A stretch of DNA of 64,000 nucleotides from Qiania dongpingensis (lineage in GTDB: Bacteria; Bacillota; Clostridia; Lachnospirales; Lachnospiraceae). Made by a program: the position numbers and the translations under genes. Location: positions 2,542,001-2,606,000 of the forward strand of contig NZ_CP060634.1 in assembly GCF_014337195.1 (NCBI RefSeq), written 5' to 3'. Below, one piece after another: positions 6,330 through 11,293 of the stretch; positions within the stretch are counted from its first letter, which is position 1, and every line of letters starts with the position of its first letter. Under the pieces are notes generated by a model. That model saw nothing but the letters and a program-made list of their open reading frames with translations, was not told the DNA's origin and did no database searches.

Positions 6330-7478
6330 ATGAAACAGGTACATTTAAGAGTCGATGATGAATTATATAATGAATTAAACGCATATTCTGTGATGATGGA
6401 GCAGACAATGCAGGATTGTGTGAGAGAAGCGGTTGCGTATTATGTTACTGATATGAGAAGAAAGCAACGGGAAGTGAAAGACCGCCAGTTTACATTTATT
6501 GATTTATTTGCCGGAATAGGTGGAATGAGAATTGCTTTTGAAAGGGCTGGCGGATACTGTGTCTATTCTAATGAGTGGAATAAATACAGTCAGCAGACAT
6601 ATTTTGCTAATTTTGGAGAGCAGCCAGAGGGAGACATTACACAGGTGCCAGCATCATCTATACCGAATCATGATATTCTGGTAGCCGGATTTCCATGTCA
6701 GCCTTTTTCTATCGCAGGTGTTTCAAAAAAGAACAGCCTCGGACGTGCAACGGGATTTGAGGATAAGACACAGGGAACACTCTTTTTTGATGTTTGCAGG
6801 ATATTAAAAGAAAAAAGACCAAAAGCCTTTATGCTGGAGAATGTAAAAAATCTGTGCAGTCATGATAAAGGCAGAACTTTTAAGGTAATACTGGAATCAT
6901 TAGAGGAATTGGATTACAGTGTATTTTATGCTGTTCTGGATGGACAGAATTATGTGCCTCAACACAGAGAACGGATTCTGATTGTGGGGTTTGACCGCAA
7001 AAAATATGGAAAGAATATGCAGTTTGATTTTGATTTGACACCTAAATATCCCAAACCTGTTATGCGTGATATTCTGGATGAAAGTGTTGATGAAAAATAT
7101 ACGTTATCAGATAAACTTTGGACATATCTACAGAATTATGCGGCAAAGCATAAAGCCGCAGGAAATGGATTTGGTTATGGGATTGCACCATTAGATGGTG
7201 TGTCAAGAACAATCAGTGCCAGATATTACAAAGATGGTTCAGAAATACTGATTGAGCAGGAAGGCAAGAATCCCAGGCGGCTGACGCCCCGTGAATGTGC
7301 GAGGTTGCAGGGGTTCCCGGATGACTTCAAAATTCCGGTATCTGATACTCAGGCGTATAAACAGTTTGGAAATTCTGTTGTTGTGCCGTTGATGGAAAAT
7401 GTAGCAAAACTGATAGTAAAGAAACTGGAAGAAATAGATCAGACAGAAGAAAAAGAATTACAGAGGATGGTGATTTAG
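6330..7478 (+). CDS. DNA (cytosine-5-)methyltransferase with N-terminal RHH domain
   Basis: The protein has 382 residues. The C5 motifs appear in order: I (FIDLFAGIGGMRIAFE), IV (GFPCQPFS, catalytic C123), VI (LENVKNL), VIII (QHRERILIVGF), IX (RRLTPRECARLQGFP) and X (YKQFGNSVVVPL). Residues 1-45 (KQVHLRVDDELYNELNAYS...) look like a ribbon-helix-helix, an unusual fusion reminiscent of the regulatory N-termini of M.EcoRII and M.SsoII. The start at 6330 is chosen because AGGAG lies 8 bp upstream. Its TAG stop abuts the endonuclease ATG. It should protect host DNA, probably at a CCWGG-like site given its partners. Confidence 0.92.
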   Translation: MKQVHLRVDDELYNELNAYSVMMEQTMQDCVREAVAYYVTDMRRKQREVKDRQFTFIDLFAGIGGMRIAFERAGGYCVYSNEWNKYSQQTYFANFGEQPEGDITQVPASSIPNHDILVAGFPCQPFSIAGVSKKNSLGRATGFEDKTQGTLFFDVCRILKEKRPKAFMLENVKNLCSHDKGRTFKVILESLEELDYSVFYAVLDGQNYVPQHRERILIVGFDRKKYGKNMQFDFDLTPKYPKPVMRDILDESVDEKYTLSDKLWTYLQNYAAKHKAAGNGFGYGIAPLDGVSRTISARYYKDGSEILIEQEGKNPRRLTPRECARLQGFPDDFKIPVSDTQAYKQFGNSVVVPLMENVAKLIVKKLEEIDQTEEKELQRMVI

Positions 7479-8654
7479 ATGACTACAGGATATGCAGGAC
7501 AGGCAATAAAATCTGTTCTCAACAGTGAAAAGGGATTTTGTAAATTTCTTTCTGCAAATGACACAGGAGCAACGGGTGGTCATCAGTCCGGTATTCTGAT
7601 TTCAAAATCGGCTGTAGATATGATGTTCAGCAGACAGGAACTCGAACAGGATACAATTCCAAAAAGAATGGTAAAAATCAGATGGCAGGATGATTTTGAG
7701 ACAGAAAGTTGTTTTACATACTATGAGAGTAAAAATGAATTAAGGATTACACGTTTTGGAAGAGGCTTTCCATTCTTAAAACCAGAGCAGACGGGAGCAT
7801 TATTTGTATTTACACAGCAAACGGATGTTGATTACAGTGTATATTTTCTGGAAACAGATGAGGAAATAGAAGAGTTTCTTGATACATTCGGCATAAGCCC
7901 TACTGAGACGAACGGTCTTATTGATATAGAAAAAGTTTCGTCAGAAACGCAGGAAAGGATGGCAATACAGGAGTTTATCAGCGGCTTGGATGTAGATTTC
8001 CCTGCATCAGATGTAATGTCAGTGGCGGCTAGAACAATTGAAGAAAAAGCATATAATCATGTGGAATATATCCTTACAAATCCTGATGAGAAAATTATCA
8101 GTTGGACGAATATGGAATATACTCTTTTCAGAGCATTGGAATATGCAAGATATGGCGAAATTATTACAAAAGGATTTCATACTGTCGATGAGTTTGTAAG
8201 AGTTGCTAATGTAGTGCTGAATCGCAGAAAAAGTCGGGCTGGTAAAAGTCTTGAACATCATTTGTCAGCGATATTTGATGGAAATGGTATAGAGTATTCA
8301 TCCCAAGCTGTTACAGAGGGGAATAAAAAGCCGGATTTTCTGTTTCCCTCTCAGGAAGCATATCATGATTATGATTTTTCAACGGATAATATTATTTCTC
8401 TGGCAGCAAAAACAACCTGTAAGGACAGGTGGAGACAGGTATTAAATGAAGCGGATAGATTGAGGGATAAACCAAAGTATCTCTGTACGCTTCAGCAGGG
8501 AATATCCGGAGCTCAGATGGATGAAATGCAGGCAGAAAATGTTATATTGGTTGTACCGAAGCCCTACATAGTGACATATCCTAAAGACCGCAGAGACAGA
8601 ATATGGACATTAGCTCGGTTTGTGCAATATGTAAAAATGATTGAGGGCAAATAA
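7479..8654 (+). CDS. Type II restriction endonuclease, EcoRII-like
   Basis: The protein has 391 residues. The N-terminal ~170 residues (ATGGHQSGILISK, RFGRGFPF) resemble the EcoRII B3-like effector DNA-binding domain. The C-terminal half carries a PD-(D/E)XK nuclease: E259 (SLEHHLSAIF), P285-D286 (KKPDFLFP), K311 (AAKTTCKDRW) and R317. That spacing fits the EcoRII catalytic core. Type IIE enzymes of this family need a second site as effector. Translation is coupled to the methyltransferase. Recognition of CCWGG or a similar site is inferred from family and from the Vsr gene beside it. Confidence 0.88.
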   Translation: MTTGYAGQAIKSVLNSEKGFCKFLSANDTGATGGHQSGILISKSAVDMMFSRQELEQDTIPKRMVKIRWQDDFETESCFTYYESKNELRITRFGRGFPFLKPEQTGALFVFTQQTDVDYSVYFLETDEEIEEFLDTFGISPTETNGLIDIEKVSSETQERMAIQEFISGLDVDFPASDVMSVAARTIEEKAYNHVEYILTNPDEKIISWTNMEYTLFRALEYARYGEIITKGFHTVDEFVRVANVVLNRRKSRAGKSLEHHLSAIFDGNGIEYSSQAVTEGNKKPDFLFPSQEAYHDYDFSTDNIISLAAKTTCKDRWRQVLNEADRLRDKPKYLCTLQQGISGAQMDEMQAENVILVVPKPYIVTYPKDRRDRIWTLARFVQYVKMIEGK

Positions 8655-8655
8655 G

Positions 8656-9105: not shown

Positions 9106-9169
9106 TATACTGTGTTGAGTGAAAGGTTGTTTTAGGGTTTTTGAAAATAACAAGTGAGGAGGGAATTTA

Positions 9170-11293
9170 ATGTACCGGATTAAAATAGAAAATTGCAATA
9201 ATATTGTAGAGGGAGAATTAACTATTGAGGATGGAAAACTTAATATCTTTTATGGAATAAATGGTACTGGAAAAACAACGATTGCAAAAGCAATAGAGTT
9301 TTCAAAGGAATCACAAAAAATAGAAGAATTACAGTCTTTTTATACAGAGACTCCAGCATCTGTCTCAATCAGTCCGGAGGTTGGAAAGATATTGGTGTTT
9401 AATGAAGAATTTGTCAGAGATATTGTTTTTAAAGAAGATGAAGTAATACAGAATTCATTTGAAGTGTTTTTGAAAACACCTAATTATTCTCAAAAAAAGG
9501 CACAGCTCGATCAACATCTTCAAGCTTTGCATAATATTATGAAGCAGGATGAAGAAATACAAGAGTTGCAGAAATTATTAGATCAGATTGCGGGTAAATT
9601 TAAACGTAATGCTAATGGAAAACTTAATAAAACAGGTGTATATAAAAGTGTATTGTCTAAAAGTAATTTGTATAATATACCAGAAGAACTGGATAGCTAC
9701 AGACCCTTTATTACAAATACAGAAATCAATATTCCTTGGATAGACTGGAAGTCTAAAGGAGATGCTTTTGATGTTGGAGATGGATGCCCATATTGTTCAG
9801 AAACATTAAACAGGTCTGTACACAATCAGAGAAAAGAGGTATTCAAAAAGACTTATAAAAAATCTGATTCGCAAAATCTCAAAGATTTGTTAGATTTGCT
9901 TGAAAGTTTAAGGATATATGTTAAACCGGAGAAGTATGATGAATTGGTATCTTATGTGAAAACGGATGTTCCAGAAGATATTATATCGGCTATTCTTGAA
10001 AAATTATTATTAGAATTGGATGTAATGTTGAAACGGTTTGCTGCTATTGTTGAGTTTGGTAACAGGAGGATTGTCCTCGCAGATATATCTAAACTTGAGC
10101 AACAAATTAATGAAATGGAGATTCCGAAAAGTTTTTTTGAGATTTTTGGTGGAGAAAAAATTGAAAATGTTATTAATCGAATAAATGATCAGGTGCTTGA
10201 ATTACGTTCAGAAGCAGCAGTATTAAAAAGAGAAATGGGTGCATTGAAAGGTGTAATGCAAGCAACGATACAAGCATCACAAACGGATATTAATGAATTC
10301 TTGAAAACGGCAGGCATAAACTATGAATTAGTGATACTTGCGGAAGATGAAACTAATAGTCGTACAATATTAAAACAATGTTTTAGTGGAGAAAGAACAG
10401 ATGTGACAAAGATATGAGATCATTTAAGCTGGGGAGAGAAAAACGCTTTTGCACTAATTCTGTTTATGTATTATGCTGTTATGCAAGACCCGGATTTAAT
10501 CATACTGGATGATCCGATCTCATCATTCGATACTAATAAAAAGTATGCCATTCTTCATAGGATGTTTAAGAATATTGGGAAACGGGATGTTTCTTTAGAG
10601 GGAAAAACAGTTTTGTTTTTAACACATGACTTTGAGCCTATTACGGATTTTATCGTAGTTGGAAAATTAGGGGAAGAAAAGGCGCAGGCTTCTTTTATTT
10701 GTAATGAACATGGAAGTGTTAAAGAACACAAGATAGATCCAAATTTGGATGTGAAACTTATTACGATAGAGTGTAGTGAAATTGCAAAAAATACAGATAT
10801 AAATATAGTTAGCCGTGTGGCTTTTTTAAGAAAGTTAAGTGAACTAAGTGGGCGGAATGGAGATTGGGATTTGGTGTATGAAATTTTATCTTGCCTCATT
10901 CATGCAAATGAAATAAAGAGAAAGTTGGGAAATAATAGATATATTGACATTGCCCCGGAAGATATTGCTATTGGAATATCTAAAATTAAGGAATATATTC
11001 CAGATTTTGATTATGATGAACTTAAAAATAGCATATATACCAAAGAAGGAATTAAAAATTTATACGATACTGAAACTAATGCGTACTTAAAAGTACAGTT
11101 ATTTAGAGAAATGAATGAAATATTGACTCACAATGAAGTTAAAATCACACAAATGGATGGCGCTTGGTATAAATTTATAGACGAAACATATCATATTGAA
11201 AATGATTATCTACATTTTTTGGATATTATTAAATTTAATATTGTACCGAGTTATATAATTGATAATGTGGATGAAATTGTTTCTGGAATATAA
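9170..11293 (+). pseudogene. RloC/PrrC-like ABC-type ATPase, split by an in-frame UGA
   Basis: One continuous frame of 707 codons is interrupted only by TGA at 10415-10417 (codon 416). It has Walker A GINGTGKTT (about 30-37), coiled coils flanking a CPYC hook (C206, C209), an ABC signature LSWGEKN just after the stop, Walker B LIILDDPISSFD, and a C-terminal helical domain. There R646, E650 and H682 have the R-x3-E-x31-H spacing reported for the PrrC anticodon-nuclease triad. Such nucleases guard restriction systems. GAGGAGGG precedes the ATG. The AT-rich composition suggests transfer. With normal termination only an N-terminal fragment is made; a restart at 10466 is possible. The family match is fair, the nuclease role an inference. 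Confidence 0.7.

Follow-up and report, generated by a model that had tools for sequence, protein, structure and literature searches.

A putative RloC-like ABC ATPase beside an EcoRII-type restriction-modification system in Qiania dongpingensis, from a family with changing restriction partners

A stretch of 64,000 nucleotides from Qiania dongpingensis (NZ_CP060634.1, positions 2,542,001-2,606,000, forward strand), here called the window, was analysed for a run of restriction genes and a large ABC ATPase. The plus strand carries, in this order, a C5-cytosine DNA methyltransferase, an EcoRII-type restriction endonuclease, a Vsr mismatch endonuclease and the ATPase frame. The methyltransferase (6330..7478, 382 amino acids (aa)) matches PF00145 with 330.8 bits (E 1.3e-98) and is over the cut-off of TIGR00675 (dcm). 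The endonuclease (7479..8654, 391 aa) carries both EcoRII-C (208.9 bits, E 6.5e-62) and EcoRII-N (77.1 bits, E 1.6e-21), and this combination of C5-methyltransferase and two-domain endonuclease is that of an EcoRII-type restriction-modification (R-M) system. Vsr (8641..9105, 154 aa) matches PF03852 (105.6 bits, E 1.2e-30) and is over the cut-off of TIGR00632. All three frames are uninterrupted, with the same lengths as in the related locus L001. Upstream of the restriction genes, on the same strand, lie a tyrosine integrase (1473..2573, PF00589, E 1.2e-20) and a Mob_Pre relaxase (4801..6114, PF01076, E 3.4e-20) of the carrier element. A first-pass annotation of this DNA had described such a gene run on a mobile element, and its frames, gene order and element were all found as claimed.

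The RloC-like ATPase frame (9170..11293, plus strand, 707 codons and a stop) is split by an in-frame TGA at 10415..10417, right before the ABC signature, leaving open reading frames (ORFs) of 415 aa and 275 aa. At E<=1e-3 at least 2266 relatives were found among 7996 scored candidates, and because relatives with 95% identity over the full 707 residues carry an uninterrupted frame, this copy appears to be either a recent nonsense allele or to carry a sequence error. Walker A and the hook remain in the first ORF and the second begins past the signature; a functional ATPase is therefore not expected from either. In this genome the restriction genes are thus uninterrupted and the putative guardian ATPase is interrupted. 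The ATPase was analysed as a 707-residue protein having an X at the stop codon.

Relatives were collected from 62 genome loci, 61 of which gave an ORF match (all except L048). The family alignment used throughout holds 50 sequences, namely the 49 of these 61 ORFs with at least 670 codons, and P0002. Walker A, CxxC, signature, Walker B and H-loop (histidine H486) are near-invariant in it. The residues N31, G32, G34 and K35 of Walker A (residues 29-36, 9254..9277, plus strand as all motifs here) are present in 50/50 members, as are C206, P207 and C209 of the CPYC hook motif (residues 206-209, 9785..9796) and L419, S420, G422 and E423 of the signature LSWGE (residues 419-423, 10424..10438, 3' of the stop). 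Walker B (residues 443-448, 10496..10513) has D447 in 50/50 and D448 in 49/50. By these motifs the protein has the RloC-type architecture, i.e. an ABC ATPase split by a CxxC-hook insert. In the structure model long helices flank the hook on both sides, with the hook itself at a predicted local distance difference test (pLDDT) score below 50.

The assignment to a PrrC/RloC-type ATPase family, made in the first-pass annotation, agrees with the invariant CxxC and with a PF13166 (AAA_13) match of 87.7 bits (cut-off 36, E 1.1e-24), the best stretch being residues 329-489. In PADLOC, residues 3-705 match positions 2-688 of the 693 in PDLC04889, a PDC-S06 model (E 1.5e-203, 676 bits). The window ATPase is therefore a member of the PF13166 / PDC-S06 family, already listed by PADLOC as a candidate for defence. 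The RloC-like protein P0121, to which one source gives the name wobble nucleotide-excising tRNase, matches another PDC-S06 model (PDLC04886, E 2.7e-240) and so shares this label with the window ATPase. When compared with the RloC-like set as full-length profiles, the family aligned in the ATPase part at 98.6%. The PrrC model PDLC02360 is absent from the 25 PADLOC families that match the window ATPase at E<=1; PrrC P0122 scores E 4.5e-133 against this model. The AriA (PARIS) profile matches residues 17-144 only (E 5.4e-7). P0122 (L066:1060-2178, Fusibacter) sits between two genes which we named HsdS and HsdM by eye, and the same genome also holds a member of the window ATPase family (L005).

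Residues 527-707 (10748..11290, plus strand) form a mainly helical C-terminal domain, by an alignment of 48 sequences and an AlphaFold2 model, and this domain is our candidate RNase. Its invariant residues in the 48-row alignment are R554, E558, S574, R646, H675 and P693. The first-pass annotation had pointed to R646, E650 and H682 as the possible catalytic triad of a PrrC-like anticodon nuclease guarding its own type II system. It had located these residues correctly, together with Walker A, CPYC and Walker B, and the PrrC offsets of 0, 4 and 36 residues are present in the window. Among close relatives (115 rows including the query) R646 is kept in 115, E650 in 104 and H682 in 113. Across the wider family, R646 is retained in 50/50 and position 650 is acidic in 38/50 (E 26, D 12), whereas H682 (11213..11215, plus strand) is found in 8/50, the position being mostly Y (24) or F (16), while H675 is invariant. 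The annotation had itself named a lack of conservation of R, E and H as speaking against its proposal, and this is what was seen for H682 and partly for E650. Because H682 is conserved so poorly, we take its agreement with the PrrC offset to be a coincidence of spacing. Furthermore, the partners described below are unrelated to one another (EcoRII, MvaI, HpaII, NgoBV-like, MmeI, type I, type III) and so speak against silencing through a single specific contact, and we regard a guardian built on R646-E650-H682 as very improbable.

Instead, we place the probable catalytic histidine at H675, with R646 and the often acidic position 650. The R646-x3-E650 element covers 11105..11119, and the segment K668-F-I-[ND]-x3-H675 (11171..11194, both plus strand; K668 in 49/50) is the proposed equivalent of the catalytic-histidine segment in PrrC and RloC. 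The family form K-F-I-[ND]-E-x-x-H675 resembles R-Y-V-N-I-L-S-H in PrrC P0122 and R-Y-M-N-R-K-S-H in the RloC-like P0121, and a similar K-F-I-N-I-Y-S-H is present in L093. The motif [RK][FYLM][ILVMA][ND]x3H, drawn up after viewing the sequences and sought in the last 130 residues, occurs in 48/50 family members, 94/121 PrrC and 117/120 RloC-like sequences, compared to 1/556 of the remaining ORFs at these loci and 0.3-0.5% of shuffled tails. The PrrC and RloC-like sequences are each closely related to one another, so their counts are not independent. The published RloC rule, Arg-X3-Glu-X36-52-His (PMC2610378), picks up 118/120 RloC-like sequences, 69/556 other ORFs and 8/50 family members. With spacers of X24 to H675 and X31 to H682 the window protein falls outside this rule, for which reason it would not be filed as an RloC.

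Several results weigh against reading the C-terminal domain as an RNase of this kind. Position 650 is not acidic in 12/50 members, and the spacer from there to H675 is 16-27 residues across the family, unlike the 36-52 of RloC. When R-x3-[ED] is required 14-52 residues upstream of the motif, the counts become 24/50 for the family, 94/121 for PrrC, 117/120 for RloC-like sequences and 0/556 for other ORFs. Comparison of C-terminal domain profiles with hhalign gave 0.6% against RloC and 0.3% against PrrC, a test low in power because the control of PrrC against RloC reached just 3.7%. With hmmsearch the best PrrC hit of the domain profile (E 0.026) was below an unrelated ORF (E 0.0037); PrrC made up 19 rows of the 25 best non-family proteins, none significant and all near-copies of one another. 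The domain alone had no Pfam match at E<=0.1. AlphaFold2 modelled it with a mean pLDDT of 88 and a predicted template modelling score of 0.86, falling to a pLDDT of about 60-64 just before and at H675. The nuclease domains of PrrC and RloC are described as HEPN domains in the part of PMC3710099 available, and Foldseek found no match of the C-terminal domain in the PDB at E<=0.001, solved HEPN domains included; a second look at the matches was a re-ranking of Foldseek's own list only. No PrrC or RloC chains were found in the PDB by sequence search.

The domain might therefore be some other effector or a binding domain, in a protein that acts as a Rad50/SMC-like handler of DNA ends and helps restriction. 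Besides the missing profile and fold matches to known nucleases, this is suggested by the full-length structure model, which matches mostly SMC, Rad50 and RecF/RecN heads, and by SbcD-like and SbcC-like neighbours on two Arcobacter-group plasmids. However, the invariant Arg, Glu and His and the near-invariant Lys in a compact helical domain would suit a metal-independent RNase better, and so would the [RK]-x2-[ND]-x3-H segment common with PrrC and RloC. We think that a DNA-end handler is on the whole unlikely, and we infer an RNase domain from the invariant residues, the motif found also in PrrC and RloC, and the relatedness of the ATPase part.

Neighbouring genes at the 61 loci were grouped by single-linkage clusters and identified by Pfam and by phmmer with 21 queries, which were drawn from these loci so that each recovers its own locus by construction. 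The commonest neighbour family is the C5-methyltransferase, found at 10/61 loci, followed by integrase-like (7), HsdM-like (6) and ABC-transporter-like (6) genes. The order methyltransferase-EcoRII-Vsr-ATPase of the window recurs at L001, L004 and L010. Other loci have methyltransferase-MvaI/BcnI-ATPase (L011), methyltransferase-HpaII-ATPase (L045 and L047, and L055 where it is preceded by Vsr), or a methyltransferase with NgoBV-like and BanI/DpnII-like genes, Vsr and the ATPase (L009). Additionally, there are loci with a C5 and a D12 methyltransferase (L016), MmeI (L034), Eco57I-like methylases (L051, L056), an N6_N4 methyltransferase (L019), and, downstream of the ATPase, a helicase-methylase fusion (L043), a D12-like methyltransferase (L038) or a lone C5-methyltransferase (L021). 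Type III-like genes were seen at L018, L033, L040 and L061, HsdS by Pfam at L049, a RhuM gene with a short HsdM-like ORF at L002, and HsdM- or HsdS-like genes at L006, L012, L023 and L054, the latter judged by their similarity to the two Fusibacter genes that we had named by eye. The pairing with type II systems thus recurs with several unrelated endonuclease families beyond EcoRII. A survey of neighbourhoods had been suggested in the first-pass annotation, and the pairing is more widespread than was thought there (EcoRII, MvaI, HpaII, NgoBV-like).

On a tree of 58 members, made by a quick method with several open forks and with state labels set by hand, a minimum of 11 switches is needed for the type II state and of 2 for the EcoRII state. 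Near neighbours on the tree differ in partner: HpaII (L045) against HsdS (L049), EcoRII (window clade) against RhuM (L002), type III-like (L018) against type I-like (L023), and MvaI (L011) against N6_N4 (L019). In the L049 genome a C5-methyltransferase lies about 14 kb from the ATPase. A gene cluster that we took by eye for the tail of the window relaxase is found near the ATPase in L001, L010, L051 and L055, and the R-M genes of these loci differ (EcoRII in the first two, Eco57I-like in L051, HpaII in L055), so perhaps these four represent one type of mobilizable element with exchanged cargo.

Such switching is also what would be expected if the ATPase, RNase or not, were an independent anti-phage protein whose R-M neighbours are uncoupled from it. 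Defence genes cluster anyway, so adjacency is no proof of coupling. This plain clustering in defence islands is the main rival to a coupled function and overlaps the other readings. Some R-M gene was found within about 5 kb at 26/61 loci, and none by the 21 queries at the other 35/61, several of which are on short contigs; these queries are blind to some R-M families, as a ResIII-domain gene at L042 was seen by Pfam and missed by them. Among the neighbours outside R-M are genes for STAND proteins, ABC transporters, KilA-N proteins and sulfatases, as well as metabolic genes. Close relatives differ in their partner or lack one, as for the L045/L049 and window/L002 pairs above, and the RloC of A. 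baylyi is described as activated without need of its own R-M proteins (PMC3874168, as far as available). On the other side, a search of 50 of the 62 genomes gave 72 C5-methyltransferase match rows in 141 Mb, from which 0.38 genomes are expected to have one in reach of the ATPase (random 2-kb gene, within 6 kb) and 10/50 were seen, a comparison that ignores kinship and the general clustering of defence genes. Nine of these 10 methyltransferases are upstream on the same strand. Vsr gave 12 match rows in the 50 genomes, of which 5 adjoin the ATPase.

Plasmids add to both sides. A tblastn search with P0002 matched 902 of 72,556 plasmid records, 772 of them over at least 80% of the length and mostly enterobacterial. 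An Enterobacter plasmid carries a relative about 31% identical to P0002 beside a methyltransferase 51% identical to that of the window and an endonuclease that shares 38% identity with the window EcoRII endonuclease over 398 columns. The arrangement there (ATPase, methyltransferase, convergent endonuclease, no Vsr annotated) differs from that of the window, and the cassette is repeated on two further plasmids of the same lineage. Some part of the ATPase-EcoRII cassette is matched by 2137 records; 87 hold at least 80% of it, against 90 records matched when the ATPase gene by itself is the query. Among 12 evenly spaced rows of these matches, 1 was a whole cassette, 9 held methyltransferase and endonuclease only, 1 the methyltransferase only and 1 a short fragment. 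In the enterobacterial lineage, then, the ATPase is accompanied by EcoRII, which for its part often occurs without the ATPase. That the ATPase keeps company with EcoRII speaks against independent neighbours, although a single clonal lineage could explain it.

Elsewhere, the partners of a relative on the Komagataeibacter plasmid pKNA10 are an Eco57I-like methylase and a BsuBI/PstI-like endonuclease, one plasmid has the ATPase after methyltransferase and helicase genes, another has HsdR about 3.4 kb upstream of it, and two have no R-M gene in reach. The two Arcobacter-group plasmids (L125, L132), where the ATPase follows the SbcD-like and SbcC-like genes, show another kind of DNA-end-processing neighbour. 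On the IncI1 plasmid R64 (L128, NC_005014, 35673-37811) a family member annotated as AAA family ATPase lies between ibfA and pifA, which are described as phage-inhibiting genes (PMC8004404, seen in part). No R-M gene is annotated in the 16 kb shown around it, and 787 plasmid records match this member at the DNA level. With the R64 member and the partnerless loci on the one hand and the positional excess and the enterobacterial cassette on the other, we consider uncoupled clustering possible, although less than probable.

We lean slightly towards a reading in which the window ATPase, broken in this copy, belongs to a widespread clade of Rad50-like ABC ATPases that back up several R-M types, type II included, as an exchangeable further layer of defence by an RloC-like RNase action. 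What was observed are the motifs of the ATPase and its hook, polar residues that do not vary, R-M partners that recur but change between loci, and the broken copy; we infer the RNase C-terminal domain, a tRNA target, a DNA-end trigger and dimerisation. The ATP sites and the CxxC hook would hold the protein as an inactive dimer. Restriction ends left uncleared, or a cell that is overwhelmed, might then start DNA-dependent ATP turnover, which would free the C-terminal helical domain built on R646, E/D650, K668 and H675. The freed domain would cut RNA, most likely tRNA, and translation would stop as with RloC. Within its available text, PMC3874168 describes activation of the RloC nuclease by linear DNA and by inducers of breaks. 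Because of this activation by DNA ends, and because a hook-bearing ATPase behind an endonuclease would be well placed to read its ends or persisting breaks, we propose an end-sensing disabler of translation. With R-M partners so unrelated to each other, a shared signal seems likelier than a specific contact. More tentatively, and with some doubt, the whole clade may be a general swappable guardian of type II R-M, for which endonuclease ends are the alarm and failed clearance leads to translation arrest; EcoRII would then have acquired this guardian at least 2 times, in Clostridia with Vsr and on enterobacterial plasmids.

Some further features of the window and its relatives were recorded. Directly 3' of the ATPase is a gene for a 95-aa, beta-flower-like protein (11316..11603, plus strand), slightly below the Pfam cut-off and also present at this position in L002 and L010; because L002 has no type II neighbour, this gene may be a companion of the ATPase and not of the R-M genes. 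An imperfect 32-nt direct repeat (1218-1249 and 11688-11719, 81% identity) flanks the whole run from the integrase through the relaxase, R-M genes and ATPase to the 95-aa gene, and is possibly the two ends of the element, or chance. A KilA-N domain protein at 13418-13957 matches the PADLOC candidate PDC-S22 (E 6.4e-93), and KilA-N, ORF6N or RhuM genes are near the ATPase in L037, L044, L034 and L002. GMP synthase C-terminal domains occur twice, at 2-334, where a guaA-like gene ends that lies upstream of the integrase, and at 27492-28784, a 430-aa GuaA-like gene in which the glutamine amidotransferase match is partial only.

If our reading is true, a guardian family following several type II kinds extends layered immunity beyond the type I enzyme guarded by PrrC, and the uncharacterised catalogue entry PDC-S06 becomes a testable mechanism. 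Since relatives occur on R64 and on plasmids with the EcoRII pair, standard E. coli K-12 phage tests apply. Among the titles and abstract openings listed in searches of the open PMC literature, we found no type II-linked RloC- or PrrC-like ATPase, nor the recurrent type II pairing of the clade, the altered histidine spacing or the EcoRII cassette. Linkage of RloC-/PrrC-like ABC-HEPN proteins to R-M in general is already known: PMC3710099, in the part available, reported in 2013 that HEPN clades including some of these proteins are linked to diverse R-M systems, and also to Doc- or RhuM-like genes. The family itself is known as a PADLOC label.

Among known systems, PDC-S06 gives an end-to-end match; its library entry is without description, and of four papers that contain the label, one has it as a table row. 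The ABC-HEPN survey (PMC3710099) has the R-M linkage in common with our findings, and EcoRII does not occur in its main text as far as this was available. PrrC and PARIS are given as guardians of R-M in a recent review (PMC12707154, in its available part). PARIS (AriA/AriB), according to partial sources, is likewise an ATPase-controlled tRNA nuclease reacting to anti-restriction, but it consists of two genes and uses a Toprim nuclease. PrrC, the E. coli anticodon nuclease that guards a type Ic enzyme, has an ABC ATPase, C-terminal R-x3-E and R-x2-N-x3-H elements and an R-M neighbourhood in common with the window protein. In contrast, it has 341-416 aa, about half of 707, and no hook insert (PMC2610378), and it is described as invariably linked to the type Ic hsd locus (PMC3874168), both in the sections available. 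RloC, an anticodon nuclease with a Rad50-like zinc hook in the available sections of the same two papers, is like the window protein in its PF13166 ATPase split by a CxxC insert, in the Arg-x3-Glu and [RK]-x2-N-x3-His elements of its C-terminus and in its published range of 658-897 aa, which includes 707. The RloC paper gives a type I/III linkage for 8/73, and its main text does not use the term type II. Unlike RloC, the window family lacks a Ser before the His, has a shorter spacer from position 650 to H675, and partners type II as well as type I/III systems.

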